A stretch of DNA of 64,000 nucleotides from Candidatus Nitrosotalea okcheonensis (GTDB lineage: Archaea > Thermoproteota > Nitrososphaeria > Nitrososphaerales > Nitrosopumilaceae). Positions 37,598 through 64,000 of this stretch are shown in pieces (within the stretch, counting starts at the first letter, position 1; each line of letters starts with the position of its first letter). The notes beneath the pieces are model-generated. The model was not told the DNA's origin, made no database searches, and was given only the letters and a program-made list of their open reading frames with translations. Made by a program: the position numbers and the translations under genes. The stretch lies in assembly GCF_900177045.1 (NCBI RefSeq), contig NZ_LT841358.1, positions 451,073 to 515,072 of the forward strand. The letters run 5' to 3'.

Positions 37598-38095
37598 TCA
37601 GATAGTTTTTTCAAATTTTTTAAGATTTGATGCAACAAGCATCTCACCCGAACGCAAATTAAATCGAACCCATCTCCCAAAATTTTCACCTGTGTCTTCA
37701 GAGACTAGAGGAATGTTATTTTCCTCTAAGATCTCTTTCAAGAATGCTATGTTTTTTGGTCCAACATTGAATAGATTGGTTTCAGATTCATGGGCAAATA
37801 TTGTAGCCCCTCCTGCCATTTTTGCTTTAATTCTCTTTGGATCTGCACCTTTGTGAATCATATTGTCAACCATGTACGAGAGTGCTTCATCAGCATATTT
37901 TCCAATGTCATTTTTCCCAGTAAATTGTATACCATCAGATTTTTTTGGTAACATGATATGAGCCATGCCTGCAACTTTTGACACTAGATCAAATAAACAA
38001 ATGGCAACACATGAACCAACAAAAGTTTTCAATTCTTTTGTTTCATCAGTTATTATTTCCAAGCCTCCCATTTTTATTTCAATCACGTTATTCAT
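37598..38095 (-). CDS. cheD: Chemoreceptor glutamine deamidase CheD
   Basis: A 165-residue CheD. The catalytic Cys lies in FVGSCVAICLFD and the His in AGMAHIMLPK. CheD deamidates specific glutamines of chemoreceptors and also binds CheC. Last gene of the cheY1-cheC1-cheD unit, 14 bp after cheC1. Confidence 0.93.
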   Translation of the reverse strand: MNNVIEIKMGGLEIITDETKELKTFVGSCVAICLFDLVSKVAGMAHIMLPKKSDGIQFTGKNDIGKYADEALSYMVDNMIHKGADPKRIKAKMAGGATIFAHESETNLFNVGPKNIAFLKEILEENNIPLVSEDTGENFGRWVRFNLRSGEMLVASNLKKFEKTI

Positions 38096-38109
38096 TGAAA
38101 AATCAAACT

Positions 38110-38700
38110 CTATATCAAAAGTTTTTTTATTTCAGAAGGATCTTGAATAAGGAGTATTTGTACGTGTAGACCAGAATTTATCCCATGAAGTTCTACAGTT
38201 GACATAATCAAAGAATCAGACTTATTTTCAAAATCTGATACTACTGCTTCTAGTAGTGTTCTGAAGAATTCAATGGCGTAACCAGGAACTGATGAACATA
38301 TTTTATATCCAGTACCAATTGATATTGCATTGATTAGTGATGCAGTAAGTATGTTTCCAATTTCAGATATTGACGACGTAGCAAGTCCAACAAATTCTTC
38401 AGATATTGGCTTACCAAGTAATTTTTCAGCTAATATTTTTGATTCATGTTCTGGCAGGTATAACAATACCCCCATATGAATATCTCCTACGCATTTTATG
38501 TACACCGCGGACATGGCATTCGTTTCTTCAAGATCTTGAATTATCACATCCAAATTCATTATTGGGATTTCTCGAGTCTTCCGTAAAATGTGTGTTACAG
38601 GTTCTTCTAACAGAGAACTAAGCGATGGAATTGTTTTGTAAACGATGAAAGAATCAAGAGTAGAATTTAATTTTTGCAGATCATTGTTTCTAGTACTCAA
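38110..38700 (-). CDS. cheC: CheC-type CheY-P phosphatase, copy 1
   Basis: A 196-residue CheC family member. The phosphatase helix shows the S/D-x3-E-x2-N pattern in SSISEIGNILTASLINAI; a second copy of the motif is not evident. It removes phosphate from CheY-P and pairs with CheD. It lies between cheY1 (78 bp upstream) and cheD. Compare cheC2 at 40275. Confidence 0.88.
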   Translation of the reverse strand: MSTRNNDLQKLNSTLDSFIVYKTIPSLSSLLEEPVTHILRKTREIPIMNLDVIIQDLEETNAMSAVYIKCVGDIHMGVLLYLPEHESKILAEKLLGKPISEEFVGLATSSISEIGNILTASLINAISIGTGYKICSSVPGYAIEFFRTLLEAVVSDFENKSDSLIMSTVELHGINSGLHVQILLIQDPSEIKKLLI

Positions 38701-38770
38701 AATTTTTACAACTCACCATTCATCATGCAAAAAAATGTAATTTTTGAAACACAGAGTATTTTATGAAATA

Positions 38771-39174
38771 TCATCATGTTATTTAGACCTGATAACCTTG
38801 CTCATCACCATTGCCACGTTAGATCTATCAAATGGTTTTATCACATAGTCTCTTGCACCAGATTTTATAGCATCCTGCACAATGTGTTTTTGCTCGACTG
38901 ATGTAACCATGATTACTTTTGCCCTAGGATTGAACTGTATTATTGCCTTGAGAGCCTGGATTCCATCTGCCTTGGGCATGTTTACATCCATTGTGACAAT
39001 ATCTGGCTTGAATTGCTTGTATGCCTCTACTGCAGCAACGCCATCTCCGGCTTCATGGATTTGCGATACCAGTCCATGAGAGACCAGTATATCTTTTAGT
39101 ACAACTCTCATAAATGATGCATCATCTACAATCAGGACTTTGACTGCGCTAGTGGTAGACATGATTATGCCTCC
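38771..39174. repeat. 404-bp exact direct repeat, copy A (cheY1)
   Basis: Identical by eye to 43502-43905; it covers the whole cheY gene plus 8 bp beyond its stop and 12 bp before its start. Outside these limits the sequences differ. Exactness at third codon positions implies recent duplication or gene conversion. Confidence 0.93.
38779..39162 (-). CDS. cheY: Chemotaxis response regulator CheY, copy 1
   Basis: A 127-residue receiver: Asp13/14 pocket in VLIVDDASFMR, phospho-Asp59 in VTMDVNMPKADG, the Thr/Ser in VTSVEQ and Lys in YVIKPFDRS. Phosphorylated by CheA, it should act on the archaellum motor through adaptors. Its protein is identical to CheY2 (43510). The upstream 19-bp dyad is 149 bp away, with a TATA-like box near 39278. 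Confidence 0.95.
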   Translation of the reverse strand: MSTTSAVKVLIVDDASFMRVVLKDILVSHGLVSQIHEAGDGVAAVEAYKQFKPDIVTMDVNMPKADGIQALKAIIQFNPRAKVIMVTSVEQKHIVQDAIKSGARDYVIKPFDRSNVAMVMSKVIRSK

Positions 39175-39301
39175 ACATCTTTTTCAGATATTTTTCACAA
39201 GTTCTCAGTAAAAAAGGTTCACCAGTATCAAGTGCTATAGAATACAAAAATACAAACACCATCAAGAGTTTTTTTAATAAAGATTGTAATATCGGTACGT
39301 T

Positions 39302-39320
39302 TGTTCAATTTGATCATACA
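39302..39320 (-). promoter_or_regulatory. Regulon dyad, cheY1-cheC1-cheD unit
   Basis: Plus strand TGTTCAATTTGATCATACA, nearly the same as the MCP site (TGTTTGAATTGATCATACA). It sits 149 bp before cheY1, but about 31 bp before a TATA-like CTTTATTAAAA, so the cheY1 message would have a longer leader. Confidence 0.55.
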
Positions 39321-39362
39321 AGAATAAATTACATGAATTTTTCAATTTCTGAAAATAGCGTT

Positions 39363-40208
39363 TTAATTATTTTGCGGTAAGACTTTTTGATAAATTCTTT
39401 CTCTTGCCATTAAAGGATTAAATAATTTTTGACATCTCCGTCCAAACATAGTTTCGTCCATTCCCAATACTAAATACCCTGATTCCTTCAAACCATTATA
39501 GAACTTTGTAAAGATTAATTCTTGTGCTTCTTTTTCATAATATATTAATACATTTCTACAAAATATTACATCAAAATACTGTATCGCATAAGACAAAATA
39601 TCACCAACTTTGAAGGTTACCATATTTTTTATGGTTGATATGACTTCATATTCCACATTATTGTCAGCGCTATTTCTTTGTTGAAAATTATTTGATATCA
39701 CATTAACTGGTAAACTTTCCACGCTTTTTGCAGGATATATTCCGCGTTGTGCAAATTCAATTGCAAATTTGTTAACATCATTTGCAATAATTTCGACCTT
39801 AAGATTAGATATTTTTTCGGTAGCTTGTTTGAACATCATTGCAATAGAATATGGTTCCTCACCTGAAGCACAACCTGCACTCCAAACACGTATTTTATTA
39901 TCTCTAAGATCTGACAATATTTTAGGCAATATTGATAACTGAAATCTGTCAAATACTGCAGAATCTCTAAAAAAATTTGTTACATTAATAGAAAGCGATG
40001 CAAATATTTCCTCAAATTCTTTACGGTCATCTCTTAGTGTGAGAAGATATTTTGAGTATTCAGAAATGTTCAGTATTCTCATCCTTCTATCCAATCTTCT
40101 TTTTATAAAGGCAGGTTTGTATCTGGCAAGATCTAGTCCATAACTTGCAAAAACTTTGTTAAATTCAGCCATGATATTTGGATCAAGGGTCAGATCATTT
40201 AGGCTCAA
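39363..40208 (-). CDS. cheR: Chemotaxis protein methyltransferase CheR
   Basis: A 281-residue SAM-dependent enzyme that methylates receptor glutamates. N-terminal helical part (DRRMRILNISEYSKYLLTLR), SAM-binding WSAGCASGEEPYSIAMMFK, and FCRNVLIYYEKEAQ. Last gene in the MCP-cheW-cheY2-cheB-cheA-cheC2-cheR run, 66 bp after cheC2; no dyad of its own. Confidence 0.94.
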   Translation of the reverse strand: MSLNDLTLDPNIMAEFNKVFASYGLDLARYKPAFIKRRLDRRMRILNISEYSKYLLTLRDDRKEFEEIFASLSINVTNFFRDSAVFDRFQLSILPKILSDLRDNKIRVWSAGCASGEEPYSIAMMFKQATEKISNLKVEIIANDVNKFAIEFAQRGIYPAKSVESLPVNVISNNFQQRNSADNNVEYEVISTIKNMVTFKVGDILSYAIQYFDVIFCRNVLIYYEKEAQELIFTKFYNGLKESGYLVLGMDETMFGRRCQKLFNPLMARERIYQKVLPQNN

Positions 40209-40274
40209 TTTTTTTCACCAAAACCATCAATCATATTCATAGAATAACCAACAGTGAGTTTTTCCATACACTTG

Positions 40275-40874
40275 TCACCTTTTAGGATTCATTAGTTTTC
40301 TTGCATTATCATAATCTTGGATTATCAGCATGTGTAATCGTAAACCACTATTGTTTCCAGTAAATTCAACTTCGGTGACTATATCACTAGTAGGACATAC
40401 AAATTCAGATGCATGTGGCTCCAATAATGCAGAAATGGATGTCATAGCAAAATCAGGAGTAGAAAGTTCTACCTTTAATCCAGTATGATCAGATAGTGCA
40501 TTAAAAAATGAACCTGACATTATATTTCCTACTTCAGATATCGCAGATTTGGATAAATCGTCAAGAGAATCTATTTTATCAATACACATTAGTTTTGCAG
40601 CAAGTTGTTTTGCATCTTGTTCTGGTATAGTGTACAAAATACCGAGACGGATATCACCTCCGCCATATAGAAATACAGAGCAAGCCACTATTTCTTTTAC
40701 AACTTTATTCATATCGCCAATCTTAGAAATTTCCACATGTGTTTGTTTTACAGCATGTCGAATTGATTCTCCAAGAAGTGAAGATAGCGCAACGGATGTT
40801 TTTTGAGTTATGTATGAATCAAGAACTCCCTCAAGAACATTCAATTCAACAGAATTTAACGCATTAGCTGGCAT
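40275..40874 (-). CDS. cheC: CheC-type CheY-P phosphatase, copy 2
   Basis: A 199-residue CheC homologue with the phosphatase motif in SAISEVGNIMSGSFFNAL. Related to cheC1 at 38110 but clearly diverged. Two CheC proteins may split phosphatase and CheD-binding roles. Begins 8 bp after cheA, in the main che operon. Confidence 0.88.
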   Translation of the reverse strand: MPANALNSVELNVLEGVLDSYITQKTSVALSSLLGESIRHAVKQTHVEISKIGDMNKVVKEIVACSVFLYGGGDIRLGILYTIPEQDAKQLAAKLMCIDKIDSLDDLSKSAISEVGNIMSGSFFNALSDHTGLKVELSTPDFAMTSISALLEPHASEFVCPTSDIVTEVEFTGNNSGLRLHMLIIQDYDNARKLMNPKR

Positions 40875-40882
40875 TTTCGTTT

Positions 40883-42448
40883 TTACACCAACAATGACGG
40901 TTCTAGAATTAATGCTACTTTACCATCAGGCAATATCGTAGCATCGGAAAATGCATTAGATGAATTTGATAATCCATCAAGACGTTTTATTACAACTTCT
41001 TGTTCTCGTTCAAGTGAATCCACAATCAAACCATAAGATTTACCATCTTTATCCACTACTACAATATTTATCTGAGAGTTAGATACCTCATCAAGTGTAG
41101 AAACTAAGCCGAGAATTTGTGATGCCCTAATTACAGGTACAACCTTGTCTCTAAGTGTTATCATTTCTTTTCCATGTACATTTTTTATCTCATTTTTGTC
41201 TACCGTGATAGTAGTAGATATGCTAGAAAGTGGGAGTACATATTTTTGATTGGATATATTTACAAGCAAGCCACCAATTATGGCCAAACTCATTGGAATT
41301 GTTAGTACTATGCTAGTACCGCTTCCTTTCGTGGTGAGGATCTTTACCTGCCCCCCTACATTTTTCACCTGTGTCATGACTACGTCCATTCCTACTCCAC
41401 GACCAGAAATATCAGTAACTGCTTTTGCGGTTGAAAGCCCAGGAGTTCCAATCAGACCGATGATTTCCTCATCAGACATGTGTGCAATCCCCTCAGCTGT
41501 AGCAATTTGTTTTTCTAATGCTTTTGCTTTGATAGCTTCAAGATCAATCCCCCTTCCATCATCTTCCACATAGATTTCTACGCGATCTCCAATCCTACTT
41601 GCACGGAGTCGTATGGTACCGGTTGCCGGTTTCCCCTTTTCTCTTCGTTCAGAGGGAGTTTCAAGCCCATGATCCACTGCATTTCGGAGCATGTGAAGAA
41701 GTGGATCAGTTATGGCATCTAATACAGTACGGTCAAGCTCAATGCCAGAATCATCTACATCAAGTTTCACTTCTTTTCCAAGCGAAGTTGAAACATCCCT
41801 TATCATTCGTGAAAATCTATTGAAGACTTGATCAATTGGGACCAATCTGATTTTCATTGTTTGATATTGAATATCAGTTATCAATCGGCCCAGAGTCATT
41901 AGAATCTCTCGGCCTTCATCGGAGTCGTGAGTGTGTAATATCTGTTCTAGTCTCATTTTTGATATCATCATCTCACCCACCAAGTTTACAAGTGAATCCA
42001 AATCTTGCATTTTCACTCTAACTGTTGGTGATTTCACCTGCGGGGTCAATGTAGTTTCTGATTCATCATGATTTTGTTTTAGATCTGAGGGATTTTTCAC
42101 ATAATTGAGAAATTCATCAAGATTAATTATTTTTGTTTCATCATGTATTAGTTGTTTTAAGAGATCAATTCCATAAAATATCACATTACCAAGTTCCGTG
42201 GTTATTGTTTCTTCACCTTTTCTAAATTTGTCAAAAATTTCTTCAATTGTTTTACAGATCTCACGAATCTGATCATAACTCATAGTTGCAGCCATGCCTT
42301 TTATCGTATGAGCAGATCTAAACAGCACATCAACATGTTCCCGTACATTTGGTTCTTCTTCAAATTTTAAGAGATGTTGGTTTAAACTTTCAACATGCTC
42401 TAATGCCTCTTGCACAAACATCTCACGGTATTTACTGTTTTCAGACAA
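40883..42448 (-). CDS. cheA: Chemotaxis histidine kinase CheA
   Basis: A 521-residue kinase. P1 Hpt domain with phospho-His47 in RSAHTIKGMAATM; a P2 CheY/CheB-binding domain is not evident between P1 and P3, which makes the linker short (~110-145). P3 dimerisation (DLDSLVNLVGEMMISKMRLE), P4 ATPase (HMLRNAVDHGLETPSER; DDGRGID; GRGVGMDVV), P5 CheW-like domain to the end. Autophosphorylates and passes phosphate to CheY and CheB. Overlaps cheB by 8 bp. Confidence 0.95.
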   Translation of the reverse strand: MSENSKYREMFVQEALEHVESLNQHLLKFEEEPNVREHVDVLFRSAHTIKGMAATMSYDQIREICKTIEEIFDKFRKGEETITTELGNVIFYGIDLLKQLIHDETKIINLDEFLNYVKNPSDLKQNHDESETTLTPQVKSPTVRVKMQDLDSLVNLVGEMMISKMRLEQILHTHDSDEGREILMTLGRLITDIQYQTMKIRLVPIDQVFNRFSRMIRDVSTSLGKEVKLDVDDSGIELDRTVLDAITDPLLHMLRNAVDHGLETPSERREKGKPATGTIRLRASRIGDRVEIYVEDDGRGIDLEAIKAKALEKQIATAEGIAHMSDEEIIGLIGTPGLSTAKAVTDISGRGVGMDVVMTQVKNVGGQVKILTTKGSGTSIVLTIPMSLAIIGGLLVNISNQKYVLPLSSISTTITVDKNEIKNVHGKEMITLRDKVVPVIRASQILGLVSTLDEVSNSQINIVVVDKDGKSYGLIVDSLEREQEVVIKRLDGLSNSSNAFSDATILPDGKVALILEPSLLV

Positions 42449-43508
42449 TTTGTTTGACCACCTTTACAATTTCATGTGCCAGGTTATCAGCGTCAACCAT
42501 TTTGTCAACTGCATGAAGATCACTTGCAGCTTTTGCCATACCATATACTACCGAAGAGGATTCATTTTGAGCAAGCGTAATACCACTTCTTTTTTTCACC
42601 ATCTTCATCCCAAAAGCTCCATCTTGTCCCATGCCAGACAACAGTACCCCTATAGTACTTGCCCCAAATACTTCAGAAGCAGATACCATTGTAACATTTA
42701 CTGCCGGCCTTACTCCAAATCTTTTTGGTCCATGATCCAATTGGATTTGATGCGATGGAGACACCACCATATGCATATCACCAGGAGCAAGTAATGCAGT
42801 TCCTTCCATTATTTGGTCACCTTCTACTGCCTGTTTTACGTGCAATTTGGAAATTGCATCAAGTCTTTGTGCAAAAGTTGAAACGAATTCCTTATTCATG
42901 TGTTGTACAATCAAAAATCCGGCAGGAATGTCACTCGGTATATCTTTTAGAATGTTGGTGATTATTCTAGGCGCCCCAGTAGATGCACCAATTACTACAA
43001 CAGTGGATGCCATTCCATCAGATACGATATCGGTATTTTTAGATGGTCTCAGTTTTGAAATTGCCTTTGGAATAAGTGCATCTCTATTGGATTTGGATGC
43101 AACCTCTATTTTTGACAGTAATGTTCCCTTGAGTTTTTCAACTACATGTGGATCATCAGGAGGTATTGAGATAAAATCTACTGCACCAAGTTCAAGGGAA
43201 TCTAGAATAAGTTTGGCGTTAGATGGACTGTAATTACTAACTACAATAATACGCAAGTTTTTTTCCGGTAGGAGATTTACATTTTCAATAAAAGTTAATC
43301 CATCCATATTTGGCATTTCCATATCTAAGAGTACGATATCAGGTGATAGATGTCGTAATTTTCGTAATGCTTCCAATCCATCGCGCGCAGTCTCTACTAT
43401 TTTGATATGATGTTCAGAAGATAATAAATCACTTAGAAGAGATACCATGTAAGGAGAATCATTTACTATCATTACGCTTATCTGATTTTTCTCAGATGTG
43501 GTCATCAT
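42441..43508 (-). CDS. cheB: Chemotaxis methylesterase/response regulator CheB
   Basis: A 355-residue two-domain protein. Receiver with phospho-Asp in IVLLDMEMPNMDG, then the methylesterase: catalytic Ser in VIGASTGAP, His in IVQHMNKEF and Asp in LSGMGQDGAFG. It removes methyl groups from MCPs when phosphorylated by CheA. Downstream of cheY2 with 1 bp between, and overlaps cheA. Confidence 0.95.
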   Translation of the reverse strand: MMTTSEKNQISVMIVNDSPYMVSLLSDLLSSEHHIKIVETARDGLEALRKLRHLSPDIVLLDMEMPNMDGLTFIENVNLLPEKNLRIIVVSNYSPSNAKLILDSLELGAVDFISIPPDDPHVVEKLKGTLLSKIEVASKSNRDALIPKAISKLRPSKNTDIVSDGMASTVVVIGASTGAPRIITNILKDIPSDIPAGFLIVQHMNKEFVSTFAQRLDAISKLHVKQAVEGDQIMEGTALLAPGDMHMVVSPSHQIQLDHGPKRFGVRPAVNVTMVSASEVFGASTIGVLLSGMGQDGAFGMKMVKKRSGITLAQNESSSVVYGMAKAASDLHAVDKMVDADNLAHEIVKVVKQIV

Positions 43509-43905
43509 GTTATTTAGACCTGATAACCTTGCTCATCACCATTGCCACGTTAGATCTATCAAATGGTTTTATCACATAGTCTCTTGCACCAGATTTTATA
43601 GCATCCTGCACAATGTGTTTTTGCTCGACTGATGTAACCATGATTACTTTTGCCCTAGGATTGAACTGTATTATTGCCTTGAGAGCCTGGATTCCATCTG
43701 CCTTGGGCATGTTTACATCCATTGTGACAATATCTGGCTTGAATTGCTTGTATGCCTCTACTGCAGCAACGCCATCTCCGGCTTCATGGATTTGCGATAC
43801 CAGTCCATGAGAGACCAGTATATCTTTTAGTACAACTCTCATAAATGATGCATCATCTACAATCAGGACTTTGACTGCGCTAGTGGTAGACATGATTATG
43901 CCTCC
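43502..43905. repeat. 404-bp exact direct repeat, copy B (cheY2)
   Basis: Pairs with 38771-39174, 4.7 kb away in the same orientation. It spans cheY2 and the cheB start and cheW stop junctions. Confidence 0.93.
43510..43893 (-). CDS. cheY: Chemotaxis response regulator CheY, copy 2
   Basis: A 127-residue receiver with the same amino-acid sequence as CheY1, including Asp59. It sits in the main che operon, 2 bp after cheW and 1 bp before cheB. The duplicate may raise CheY dose or put CheY under two promoters. Confidence 0.95.
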   Translation of the reverse strand: MSTTSAVKVLIVDDASFMRVVLKDILVSHGLVSQIHEAGDGVAAVEAYKQFKPDIVTMDVNMPKADGIQALKAIIQFNPRAKVIMVTSVEQKHIVQDAIKSGARDYVIKPFDRSNVAMVMSKVIRSK

Positions 43906-44375
43906 TGCACAGATGTAGTATCTTTCAAAAGTTTTTCCATATCTAAAAGTACAACTAATCTACCTGAAATTTTTGCTACACCTTTGACATATTCTAGCGA
44001 TTCAAGACCTCCAGAAAGATTTGTTTCTACTTCTTTTGATGTGATTCTCATTACTTGATCAACTTCGTCAATCAAAAGACCAGTAAGATGTCCTTCCACA
44101 TCAGCTACAAGAACACGTGCTTTTGGACTTGATGTACCATCACTTGAGAAACCAAGTTTTTCTTTTACATCTATTACTGGAACAATCATACCTCTCAAAT
44201 TCATCACTCCAAGAACATAGCTTTTTGCATTAGGTACCTTGGTGATAGACTCCAGAGGACGTATCTCTCGTACCTGTTCGATCAAAACACCATATTCTTC
44301 TTTTTTATGCAACTTGGAATCAAGTAGGCTGAATACAACAATCTGTAGATTTCCTTCAATGATTGTCTCACTCAT
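43896..44375 (-). CDS. cheW: Chemotaxis coupling protein CheW
   Basis: A 159-residue Che[21 protein letters not shown] then [40 protein letters not shown] and [11 protein letters not shown]. It links receptors to CheA. Its start overlaps the MCP stop by 4 bp (ATGA), so the two are coupled. Confidence 0.94.
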
Positions 44376-61555: not shown

Positions 61556-62143
61556 ATGCTGTCTAATCCTATGTCATATTCAAAAAATCCTCTTGTTGGC
61601 ATCATAATGGGATCTAGTTCAGACAGTAAAGTAATGCATTCGGCAGCAATAGCCTTGGATGAATTTGGAATAAAACATGAGGATCAGATTGTTTCTGCCC
61701 ATAGGACACCTACAAGATTGCCAGACTATGCAAAACATGCAGAAAAACAAGGATTCAAAGTAATCATCGCAGGAGCAGGAGGTTCGGCTCATCTGCCAGG
61801 CATGATTGCGTCACATACAACAATTCCAGTAATAGGAGTTCCAATAATGGTTTACAATGACAAGATAAATTCTGACAAGTTCAAGTTTTCTGCATTTGGA
61901 GGACTAGATGCGCTGTTATCAATATCGGAGATGCCAACGGGTTCTCCTGTTGTTACAGTAGGTGTAAACAAAGCTGCAAATGCAGGACTGTATGCAATAA
62001 AGATTCTTGCAAATGAATTTCCAGAATTAAAAACCAAGCTAAAAAAACATAAAGAAATGCAACACAAATCAGTTCTAAAAGAATCAGACGAAATGAAAAA
62101 ACTTGGCCTTGTTCGATTTGCAGATAAGAAACTCAAGAAATAG
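61556..62143 (+). CDS. purE: N5-CAIR mutase PurE
   Basis: Moves the carboxylate of N5-CAIR to give CAIR, the step after PurK. Motifs: IIMGSSSDSKVMHSAAIALD, VSAHRTPTRLPDYA, GAGGSAHLPGMIASHT. About 195 residues from 61556; a second ATG at 61571 fits a leaderless start behind TATA-like tttaattattt (~61540), so the shorter form is possible. The last ~30 residues are lysine-rich. Confidence 0.94.
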   Translation: MLSNPMSYSKNPLVGIIMGSSSDSKVMHSAAIALDEFGIKHEDQIVSAHRTPTRLPDYAKHAEKQGFKVIIAGAGGSAHLPGMIASHTTIPVIGVPIMVYNDKINSDKFKFSAFGGLDALLSISEMPTGSPVVTVGVNKAANAGLYAIKILANEFPELKTKLKKHKEMQHKSVLKESDEMKKLGLVRFADKKLKK

Positions 62144-62144
62144 A

Positions 62145-63419
62145 TTAGAGGTGATTAGATATCTGCATTACAGGAATTGAAAAGTATATCGGATATATTT
62201 TTCCAGTAGTCGGATGTGTATAGTTCCATCTTTTGTCCTGAGGATCAATTTTCATAAACTGTGTGGCCATATCAGACGATAACATTTTGTATGCTTCTTC
62301 CCCTATTGTCATCTGGTTTGGTTGTGCAAGAGGTAAAATCTTTGAAGCAATTGTAATGCTGTGTCCAATCAAATCAGGTTCAGAGCCAAGAACAACAATC
62401 CTATTTTTTCCAACATCTATTCCAATTCTTACATTGATTTTCGGCAGACCAAAGCTTGCAAACATGGGATTTAGTGAGTGTGTAACCAGCATGTTCATGG
62501 ATCGAGCACAACGTACAGCATTTGCTGCCATATTCCCAAAGTCTTTGAGTTCTGGGAAAAATGCAATCACTGCATCTCCTGTATACTTTAGAACAAAACC
62601 TGCATGCTTTGATACTACTACTGACATCTCTTCAGAAAATACCTTGATCAGCCCAGAAAGATCATCGGAGCTAAGTGATGTTGCAATTTTGGTAGATCCT
62701 ACAATATCAACATATAGAATGGCTGTATTGATTTCGTTTTCAGGCCACAGACTCAAGAATCTGTTTGAGACGTATTTGAGAAATGCTTGAGAATATGAAT
62801 CACTTTGTTTCCTCTTGTATAACGAAAAGTTTCTTTGTATTCTGGTTAGACTTTGAATCACAAATGCGTCATCAGGAGTAAGAATTTGAAAACTTTCAAC
62901 CGGTTTTACTTGAGATATTACAGACTCTAAGCTTTCAAGTGGAACAAACTTCTTTTCTATAACATCATAATACCCTTTTTCCCCCTCTATTACTTGTGGC
63001 TCAAGTTTTACTTTGCTAGTGGTAAGACCAAAAGGAAATGATGTTTTTTGTTTATTTGCCGCAATTAGTATGACACTATCATATTCACTTAATGCTAATC
63101 CTTGTTCATTTTCTACTCCTGAACTAATATCAATTATACGAGAGATTGGAAATATTGAAATTTTTCCAGTGTTTGAGTTTGCCCTTATTACTTCAATTAC
63201 ATCATGTTCTGAGTTATCAGATACAGTTGTTTGGAGAATGAACTTGTCCCTGAATTCAGAACGATACATACCAGTACCCTTTGCTGCATGGACTTCAGAG
63301 CCAACCGTGGTTCCCCTACTCTTAACTTTGACAACATTTACGGTAATTCCCATCATGTCAAGAGCGTCAGTTACTGCAGTAAGGTCATTTCTTGGCAACT
63401 CTGCCTCTATTCGTATCAT
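62145..63419 (-). CDS. P-II-like domain fused to a class III nucleotide cyclase
   Basis: A 424-residue protein. Residues 1-~101 look like P-II (GlnB/GlnK): MIRIEAELPRNDLTAVTDAL strand-helix, VVKVKSRG then a T-loop-like stretch ending GTGMYRSEFRDKF, ILQTTVSDNSEHDVIEVIRA, and TGKISIFPISRIIDISSG. The B-loop Gly-Asp-Gly is missing. A ~130-residue linker follows. The C-terminal domain (~232-395) is an adenylate/guanylate cyclase: metal Asp238 in ILYVDIVGSTKIA and Asp282 in YTGDAVIAFFPE, with INVRIGIDVGKN. Likely a nitrogen/energy-sensing cyclase; the fusion is unusual. Confidence 0.82.
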   Translation of the reverse strand: MIRIEAELPRNDLTAVTDALDMMGITVNVVKVKSRGTTVGSEVHAAKGTGMYRSEFRDKFILQTTVSDNSEHDVIEVIRANSNTGKISIFPISRIIDISSGVENEQGLALSEYDSVILIAANKQKTSFPFGLTTSKVKLEPQVIEGEKGYYDVIEKKFVPLESLESVISQVKPVESFQILTPDDAFVIQSLTRIQRNFSLYKRKQSDSYSQAFLKYVSNRFLSLWPENEINTAILYVDIVGSTKIATSLSSDDLSGLIKVFSEEMSVVVSKHAGFVLKYTGDAVIAFFPELKDFGNMAANAVRCARSMNMLVTHSLNPMFASFGLPKINVRIGIDVGKNRIVVLGSEPDLIGHSITIASKILPLAQPNQMTIGEEAYKMLSSDMATQFMKIDPQDKRWNYTHPTTGKIYPIYFSIPVMQISNHL

Positions 63420-63512: not shown

Positions 63513-64000
63513 ATGCCAAATAGTGATGTCTTGGAACTAAGCGAGATTCTGCCCAATATCATTTCAGAGTATGGAGAACAGAGAATACTTTCAGACATAG
63601 TACAAGGCGAAAGCACAGAAGTCATAAAAAGCATTTTTGAACATTGCATGTCAAAAATAGAAAAAACAGACGGAATAAAACCAGACACTTGCATTACAGT
63701 TTCAGAAGGGTTACTACACTATTTGCTTACAATTACCATGATTCCAAGTAAGCGAAAAACTATGTTCCATTCAGTTGATATCGACATTGCAATTCCTGAT
63801 ACCATAACACTTGGAACATCCCCGCAAGATGTCATCGTGATCTCTTTTCCAAAAACAAATGATGTGAATACAATAAAGTCTCAGATTGAAAACATAAAAA
63901 AAGTTCAACCAAACAAAGATAACATATGGGTAGTTCTTGAGGAAGACATGCAGTGCGGTGCAAAAGTATACACGTTAAGTGGTTCTATGACATTTGCAAA
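63513..64000 (+). CDS. Hypothetical protein, 3' end outside window
   Basis: Open from the ATG at 63513 (MPNSDVLELSEILPNIISEY) to the right edge, 162 complete codons with no stop. Includes IAIPDTITLGTSPQDVIVIS and DNIWVVLEEDMQCGAKVYTL. Soluble alpha/beta in look; no motif I recognise. Divergent from the P-II/cyclase gene with 93 bp between. Confidence 0.6.
   Translation, partial: MPNSDVLELSEILPNIISEYGEQRILSDIVQGESTEVIKSIFEHCMSKIEKTDGIKPDTCITVSEGLLHYLLTITMIPSKRKTMFHSVDIDIAIPDTITLGTSPQDVIVISFPKTNDVNTIKSQIENIKKVQPNKDNIWVVLEEDMQCGAKVYTLSGSMTFA

Follow-up and report, generated by a model that had tools for sequence, protein, structure and literature searches.

The DNA analysed here, a window of 64,000 nucleotides (positions 451073-515072 of the 1.97-Mb single-contig genome of Candidatus Nitrosotalea okcheonensis), encodes what is certainly a real P-II domain covalently linked to a class III nucleotide cyclase. 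The gene is a single open frame with an ATG start and no internal stop (Table 1). P-II proteins normally work as separate trimers. Nitrosotalea species are acid-tolerant ammonia-oxidising archaea (AOA) whose whole energy supply is ammonia. In such an organism a P-II domain that apparently no longer senses ATP or 2-oxoglutarate might serve as a plug-in adapter, through which an adenylyl cyclase would read the state of the ammonium transporter, either directly on Amt1 or via mixed P-II trimers. As no cAMP receptor is recognised in this archaeon, the circuit would be one in which a second messenger tracks ammonium supply without a known target. We advance this full reading tentatively, at a probability well short of even.

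Table 1. Features of the fusion gene and its neighbours (positions within the window).
Feature	Coordinates	Strand	Basis or remark
P-II/class III cyclase fusion gene	62145..63419	-	424 aa; ORF, Pfam, orthologues
P-II domain, residues 1-101	63117..63419	-	PF00543, AlphaFold2, fold matches, tree
T-loop, residues 36-58, HAAKGT motif	63246..63314	-	alignments; dN/dS 0.079
Site of missing B-loop residues, between T84 and G85	63165..63170	-	alignments; common to whole Amt1-linked P-II clade
Linker, residues 109-228	62736..63095	-	conserved 'GYYDxxEKxFVP' element; helix ends just ahead of cyclase (low-confidence model)
Class III nucleotide cyclase domain, residues 229-414	62178..62735	-	PF00211, fold, D238, K278, D282, D349, T356, K360
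purE (presumed), convergent neighbour of fusion	61556..62143	+	borders empty site in fusion-less genomes
Divergent neighbour of fusion, no family assigned	63513..64000	+	runs beyond window end; directly after purE where fusion missing

Pfam assigns the C-terminal part of the protein to Guanylate_cyc (PF00211, E 6.4e-11, residues 231-387). The N-terminal match to P-II (PF00543, E 1.5e-4, residues 2-99) reached 22.5 bits against a cut-off of 25 bits and, in a search of the genome, 25.6 bits, slightly over the cut-off; taken alone, membership of this family is borderline. The preliminary description had read residues 1-101 as P-II and recommended a fold comparison, and both sequence (42% identity to a stand-alone P-II of the same genome that itself scores above the cut-off) and predicted fold agree with it. 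In the AlphaFold2 model, residues 1-91 mostly have pLDDT values of 72-87 outside the T-loop. Foldseek against the PDB ranked P-II proteins first for this domain (GlnZ, 4co3, E 2.0e-7), and VIA-align gave Z ~12 with P-II proteins and, tied with them, with the c-di-AMP-binding PII-like PstA/DarA. Because the alignment was shallow, the full-length model was poor beyond the P-II part, and residues 109-424 were modelled separately. The cyclase core of this second model reached pLDDT 66-84, with CyaC as its best Foldseek match (1wc1, E 1.8e-8; VIA Z 15.6) and a VIA Z of 16.1 with 6yii, titled a class III cyclase-like ATP-binding protein and tied with active cyclases. PF00211, the predicted fold and the invariant D238 and D282 thus bear out the earlier assignment of a class III cyclase with both metal aspartates. 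For the linker, no convincing sequence match was found among solved structures and model confidence is low; from about residue 122 onwards it goes with the cyclase in alignments with stand-alone AOA relatives.

The preliminary description had raised the possibility that a frameshift or an assembly error joined two genes. We regard the probability of this as next to nil. It finds no support in this genome, and frameshifted copies occur in two other records (L048, L123), but the joined frame recurs in independent assemblies, including the single-contig chromosome of Ca. N. devanaterra. The fusion is present, always next to purE, in 24 of 37 Nitrosotalea genomes, namely as 22 open frames of 420-439 aa, in G249 and, frameshifted, in G303, whose assembly has a broken purE as well. 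It also occurs in 13 named contigs from independent projects, one of which (L048) is frameshifted. A set of 300 genomes of the order includes 20 from the genus, and 16 of these have the gene at full length. The P-II part, the linker and the cyclase have median pairwise dN/dS values of 0.058, 0.068 and 0.056; the gene is under purifying selection along its whole length (dN/dS ~0.06), which also argues against an artefact. On the independent contigs and the 24 genus genomes we reject an assembly error. The covalent link is genuine and has been kept under purifying selection.

Outside the genus, none of the 300 order genomes has a full-length fusion, and a profile search of 398 genomes from the phylum found none either; in the latter set the P-II and cyclase parts match separately. 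Sought in other archaea, as had been proposed, the architecture thus recurs within Nitrosotalea and in no other genus of these two sets. Two scans of viral contigs yielded no viral relatives (in one query alignment, row 1 began with ILLAAN for VILIAAN). The fusion is vertically inherited and, among the genomes searched, restricted to the genus.

The gene is convergent to the one we take to be purE. In six genomes (G200, G214, G227, G240, G302 and G316) the site is empty: purE is followed by the gene that elsewhere lies on the far side of the fusion. Mapped on a purE tree, presence and absence of the fusion require four changes by parsimony, at least two of them forced by well-supported branches, and the fusion was therefore gained or lost more than once. 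We read this as an early origin in the genus followed by repeated loss, on a purE tree rooted at the midpoint only. In G214 (L117, 1810-2330), about 500 bp of other sequence separate purE from that gene, in the place of the fusion.

Four stand-alone P-IIs are encoded in the same genome. Two of them stand in tandem and divergent from Amt1 (L088), a third belongs to the AMO region, which also has a second Amt, and the fourth (L051), which is very divergent, is flanked by two solute transporters downstream of a urease gene; the names Amt1, AMO, Amt, transporter and urease are our own reading of the translations. All four (L088, L089 and L090 regions) are near apparent nitrogen transporters. A tree of 41 P-II sequences places the fusion P-IIs inside a clade of 12 with 100/100 support, together with the tandem P-IIs and two P-IIs from two other genera; the latter two adjoin Amt1 orthologues (73-78% identity). 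None of the 12 members has a GDG B-loop, so the loss of the B-loop is older than the fusion. Within the genome, GDG is absent from the fusion and from three of the four stand-alone P-IIs. The absence had been pointed out before as a sign of changed ligand binding; it is real, but it marks the Amt1-linked P-II subfamily, and we rejected it as a novelty of the fusion. Residues ~122-417, comprising cyclase and linker, match stand-alone class III cyclases of AOA (Nitrososphaeria; L022-L035) at 32-53% identity and with nearly the same catalytic pattern; these relatives are without P-II. The fusion is an Amt1-subfamily P-II joined to an AOA stand-alone class III cyclase, with the cyclase's own linker kept.

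In archaeal GlnK, nucleotide is contacted by Thr29, Ile38, Gln39, Gly87, Asp88, Lys90, residue 64, Phe92, Arg101 and Arg103, and 2-oxoglutarate by Gln39, Gly41, Arg9 and Lys58 (PMC8395244). In our alignment the fusion has Pro for Arg9, Asn28 for Thr29, Thr38 for Gln39, Ser88 for Phe92, Asp97 for Arg101 and Ser99 for Arg103, and Gly87-Asp88 are deleted; only Lys58 (K59), Lys90 (K86) and Gly41 (G40) are kept. The exchange of Arg101 for Asp is also found in all four stand-alone P-IIs. With almost every ATP- and 2-oxoglutarate-binding side chain changed, classical ATP/ADP/2-oxoglutarate sensing by this domain is unlikely. The T-loop is present and conserved across 13 orthologues, and its HAAKGT motif is common to the fusion and one Amt1-linked P-II. 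K47 of the fusion aligns with Arg47 of GlnK, the residue that enters the AmtB pore in the AmtB-GlnK structure and by which GlnK plugs the transporter. To judge from these residues, the fusion P-II probably reads ammonium transport in a non-classical way.

On the cyclase side, the metal aspartates D238 and D282 are invariant among fusion orthologues and aligned AOA relatives, and the adenine pair K278 and D349 is present in every aligned AOA relative. ATP is most likely the substrate, and the enzyme is a probable adenylyl cyclase. The catalytic (transition-state) Asn/Arg of class III cyclases is Thr356/Lys360 in the fusion and, in AOA relatives, mostly Ser/Thr (Asn in two rows) with Lys; given Thr/Lys at these positions, cyclase activity is not assured. 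PycC (Pycsar) models match the fusion at 6.3e-25 and, at 6e-28 and 1e-29, also CyaC and CyaB, which are adenylyl cyclases, so the match is uninformative on pyrimidines. Tyr236 lies two residues ahead of the first metal Asp, where PycC has Phe/Tyr and CyaC and CyaB also have Phe. We do not favour a role in Pycsar defence, as the PycC models also match true adenylyl cyclases and no Pycsar-type effector was seen among the neighbouring genes inspected. The preliminary description had recommended a search for cNMP-binding proteins: none with a cNMP_binding domain (PF00027) was found in the genome, and the same search gave matches in 10 of 14 control genomes. Class III cyclase matches in the genome number four, one of them partial. 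A cyclase fusion of another kind, in which a response-regulator receiver domain comes after the class III cyclase domain, is seen in L056 (G000:C1:733749-734273(-)), where the domains were checked, and by similarity in L043:2119-3234(-).

Across 30 genomes, Amt1 was found in 23 of the 24 that carry the fusion and in none of the six with an empty site (Fisher p 1.2e-5); with near-complete genomes only, the counts were 15/15 and 0/4. The two control genes that were run did not track the fusion (cheA, p 0.18; ureC, p 1). G303, which is 70% complete, has the frameshifted fusion and no Amt1 match. In three incomplete genomes (G305, G306 and G314) Amt1 was found without the fusion, and purE is missing from these assemblies too. 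The near-complete genomes without the fusion are also without intact tandem P-IIs and without a second Amt1-like gene (72-75% identity). In G227, the one genome used for this comparison of gene content, 29 of 102 sampled genes were absent or only distantly matched. Since gene loss is common, the genomes are related and only two controls were run, the association with Amt1 may reflect a shared niche.

How might such a protein work? We consider it possible, at somewhat less than an even chance, that it links the state of Amt1 and its P-IIs to the probable adenylyl cyclase. The P-II part would act as a docking and oligomerisation adapter, whose T-loop would bind the low-affinity ammonium transporter Amt1, or which would enter mixed trimers with the two Amt1-linked P-IIs, or both. 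The state of ammonium transport would thereby set the pairing of cyclase domains, and the cyclase would then make cAMP for some receptor; cAMP is proposed as the product because the Lys-Asp adenine pair is kept. In support of this adapter are the position of the fusion within the Amt1-linked P-II clade, including the two members from other genera beside Amt1 orthologues, the loss of the ligand residues together with the retained T-loop and K47, and dN/dS values of 0.056-0.068 in all three parts. The co-occurrence with Amt1, the empty purE sites in six genomes and the conservation of D238, D282, K278 and D349 point the same way. Mixed trimers have a precedent in E. coli GlnB/GlnK, according to the passage of PMC5448240 that cites van Heeswijk 2000. 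Against it, binding to Amt1 or to other P-IIs is conjectural, the link with Amt1 may come from the niche, as set out above, with G303 as a fusion without an Amt1 match, and catalytic Asn/Arg are Thr/Lys. Moreover, P-II forms trimers and the cyclase dimers, a mismatch of symmetry that only mixed trimers or larger assemblies would resolve.

Other readings concern the input as well as the output. The P-II domain might bind another small ligand in the manner of PII-like proteins, perhaps cAMP as feedback; SbtB with adenyl nucleotides and PstA/DarA with c-di-AMP are precedents, and the latter are among the top structural matches (Z 11.5-12.5), but PstA merely ties with ordinary P-II at 14-16% identity, and we hold this to be unlikely. 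A little more doubtful still is that the cyclase domain makes no cNMP and is an ATP-binding signalling domain instead. Asn to Thr356 and Arg to Lys360 and the best VIA match, 6yii, would fit such a function, but that match is tied with active cyclases, and neither the two metal aspartates nor the Lys-Asp pair vary. Most of the AOA cyclase family also has Ser/Thr with Lys, and purifying selection acts on the fusion, so this combination may be the family's working version. The preliminary description had assumed that P-II senses ATP/ADP and 2-oxoglutarate and directly gates cNMP synthesis. The P-II fold and the retained equivalents of Lys58 and Lys90 speak for it, but the replacement or deletion of Arg9, Thr29, Gln39, Gly87-Asp88, Phe92, Arg101 and Arg103 makes this assumption improbable. 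As to the product, Pfam gives PF00211 and PF00543 in the fusion and no GGDEF domain. Diguanylate cyclases carry the GGDEF domain, which is of another family than PF00211 (class III). A published mention of the fusion suggests c-di-GMP (PMC7646526), but this is the wrong enzyme class, for which we rejected it, and c-di-GMP was not detected in two archaea tested (PMC8646023); its chances are very remote.

The fusion can be set beside several known systems. CyaC (Spirulina) and CyaB (Pseudomonas) share the fold, both metal aspartates and the adenine Lys with the fusion, but they have Thr at the second adenine position, where the fusion has Asp, and the catalytic Asn/Arg, where it has Thr/Lys; they carry other sensory domains. 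The Amt1-linked AOA P-IIs (GlnB/GlnK, PF00543) resemble the fusion in fold, T-loop and lack of GDG, with one of the same genome 42% identical. They are separate proteins, however, and the 42% one keeps Thr29 and Phe92, both of which are lost in the enzyme-linked fusion. In Azospirillum, GlnZ acts in trans on c-di-GMP enzymes (PMC7646526), likewise a P-II on second-messenger enzymes, but the proteins are separate, 2-oxoglutarate responsive and concerned with c-di-GMP, whereas the fusion joins P-II to a cNMP-type enzyme. The NIF3-family protein SA1388 (PMC1779786) also has a PII-like domain within a larger protein; it is unrelated and has this domain in its middle. The Nitrosotalea fusion itself was mentioned in one sentence in 2020 as possible c-di-GMP signalling (PMC7646526), which is a misreading. 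Thus, of the new signalling device that the preliminary description had envisaged, the architecture is real and its existence was already in print. In the literature searched we found no account of the class of the cyclase, the loss of its partner's ligand site, the origin from Amt1-linked P-IIs, the empty sites or the association with Amt1.

A fixed P-II-cyclase link for once identifies the input module of an archaeal second-messenger pathway together with its output enzyme, and one gene gives a concrete hypothesis in which the state of ammonium transport would set cAMP in organisms fuelled by ammonia. The presence of cAMP in archaea is decades-old knowledge. Few archaeal cyclases are of class III, and the makers of archaeal cAMP are mostly unknown (PMC8646023). 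For the Amt1-linked AOA P-II subfamily without the B-loop GDG, 2-oxoglutarate sensing should not be assumed.

Another P-II variant of AOA, 196-237 aa long, consists of P-II and a C-terminal extension (RSRLVPLQKFTL...YRIKSFSDFVNFCILEYLP) that has no Pfam match. It is found at L063/L087 (G009), L078 (G114) and L073/L082 (G001), near an Amt gene in G114 and G001. The window also contains, at 37598-44375 (-), a chemotaxis cluster of cheD, cheY, cheR, a cheC-like gene, cheA, cheB, cheY and cheW; cheA has a patchy distribution, occurring in 17 of 37 genomes of the genus. All 384 bases agree between the two cheY ORFs (38779-39162 and 43510-43893), and the identity ends 8 and 12 bases outside them, which we read as recent duplication, gene conversion or strong homogenisation.
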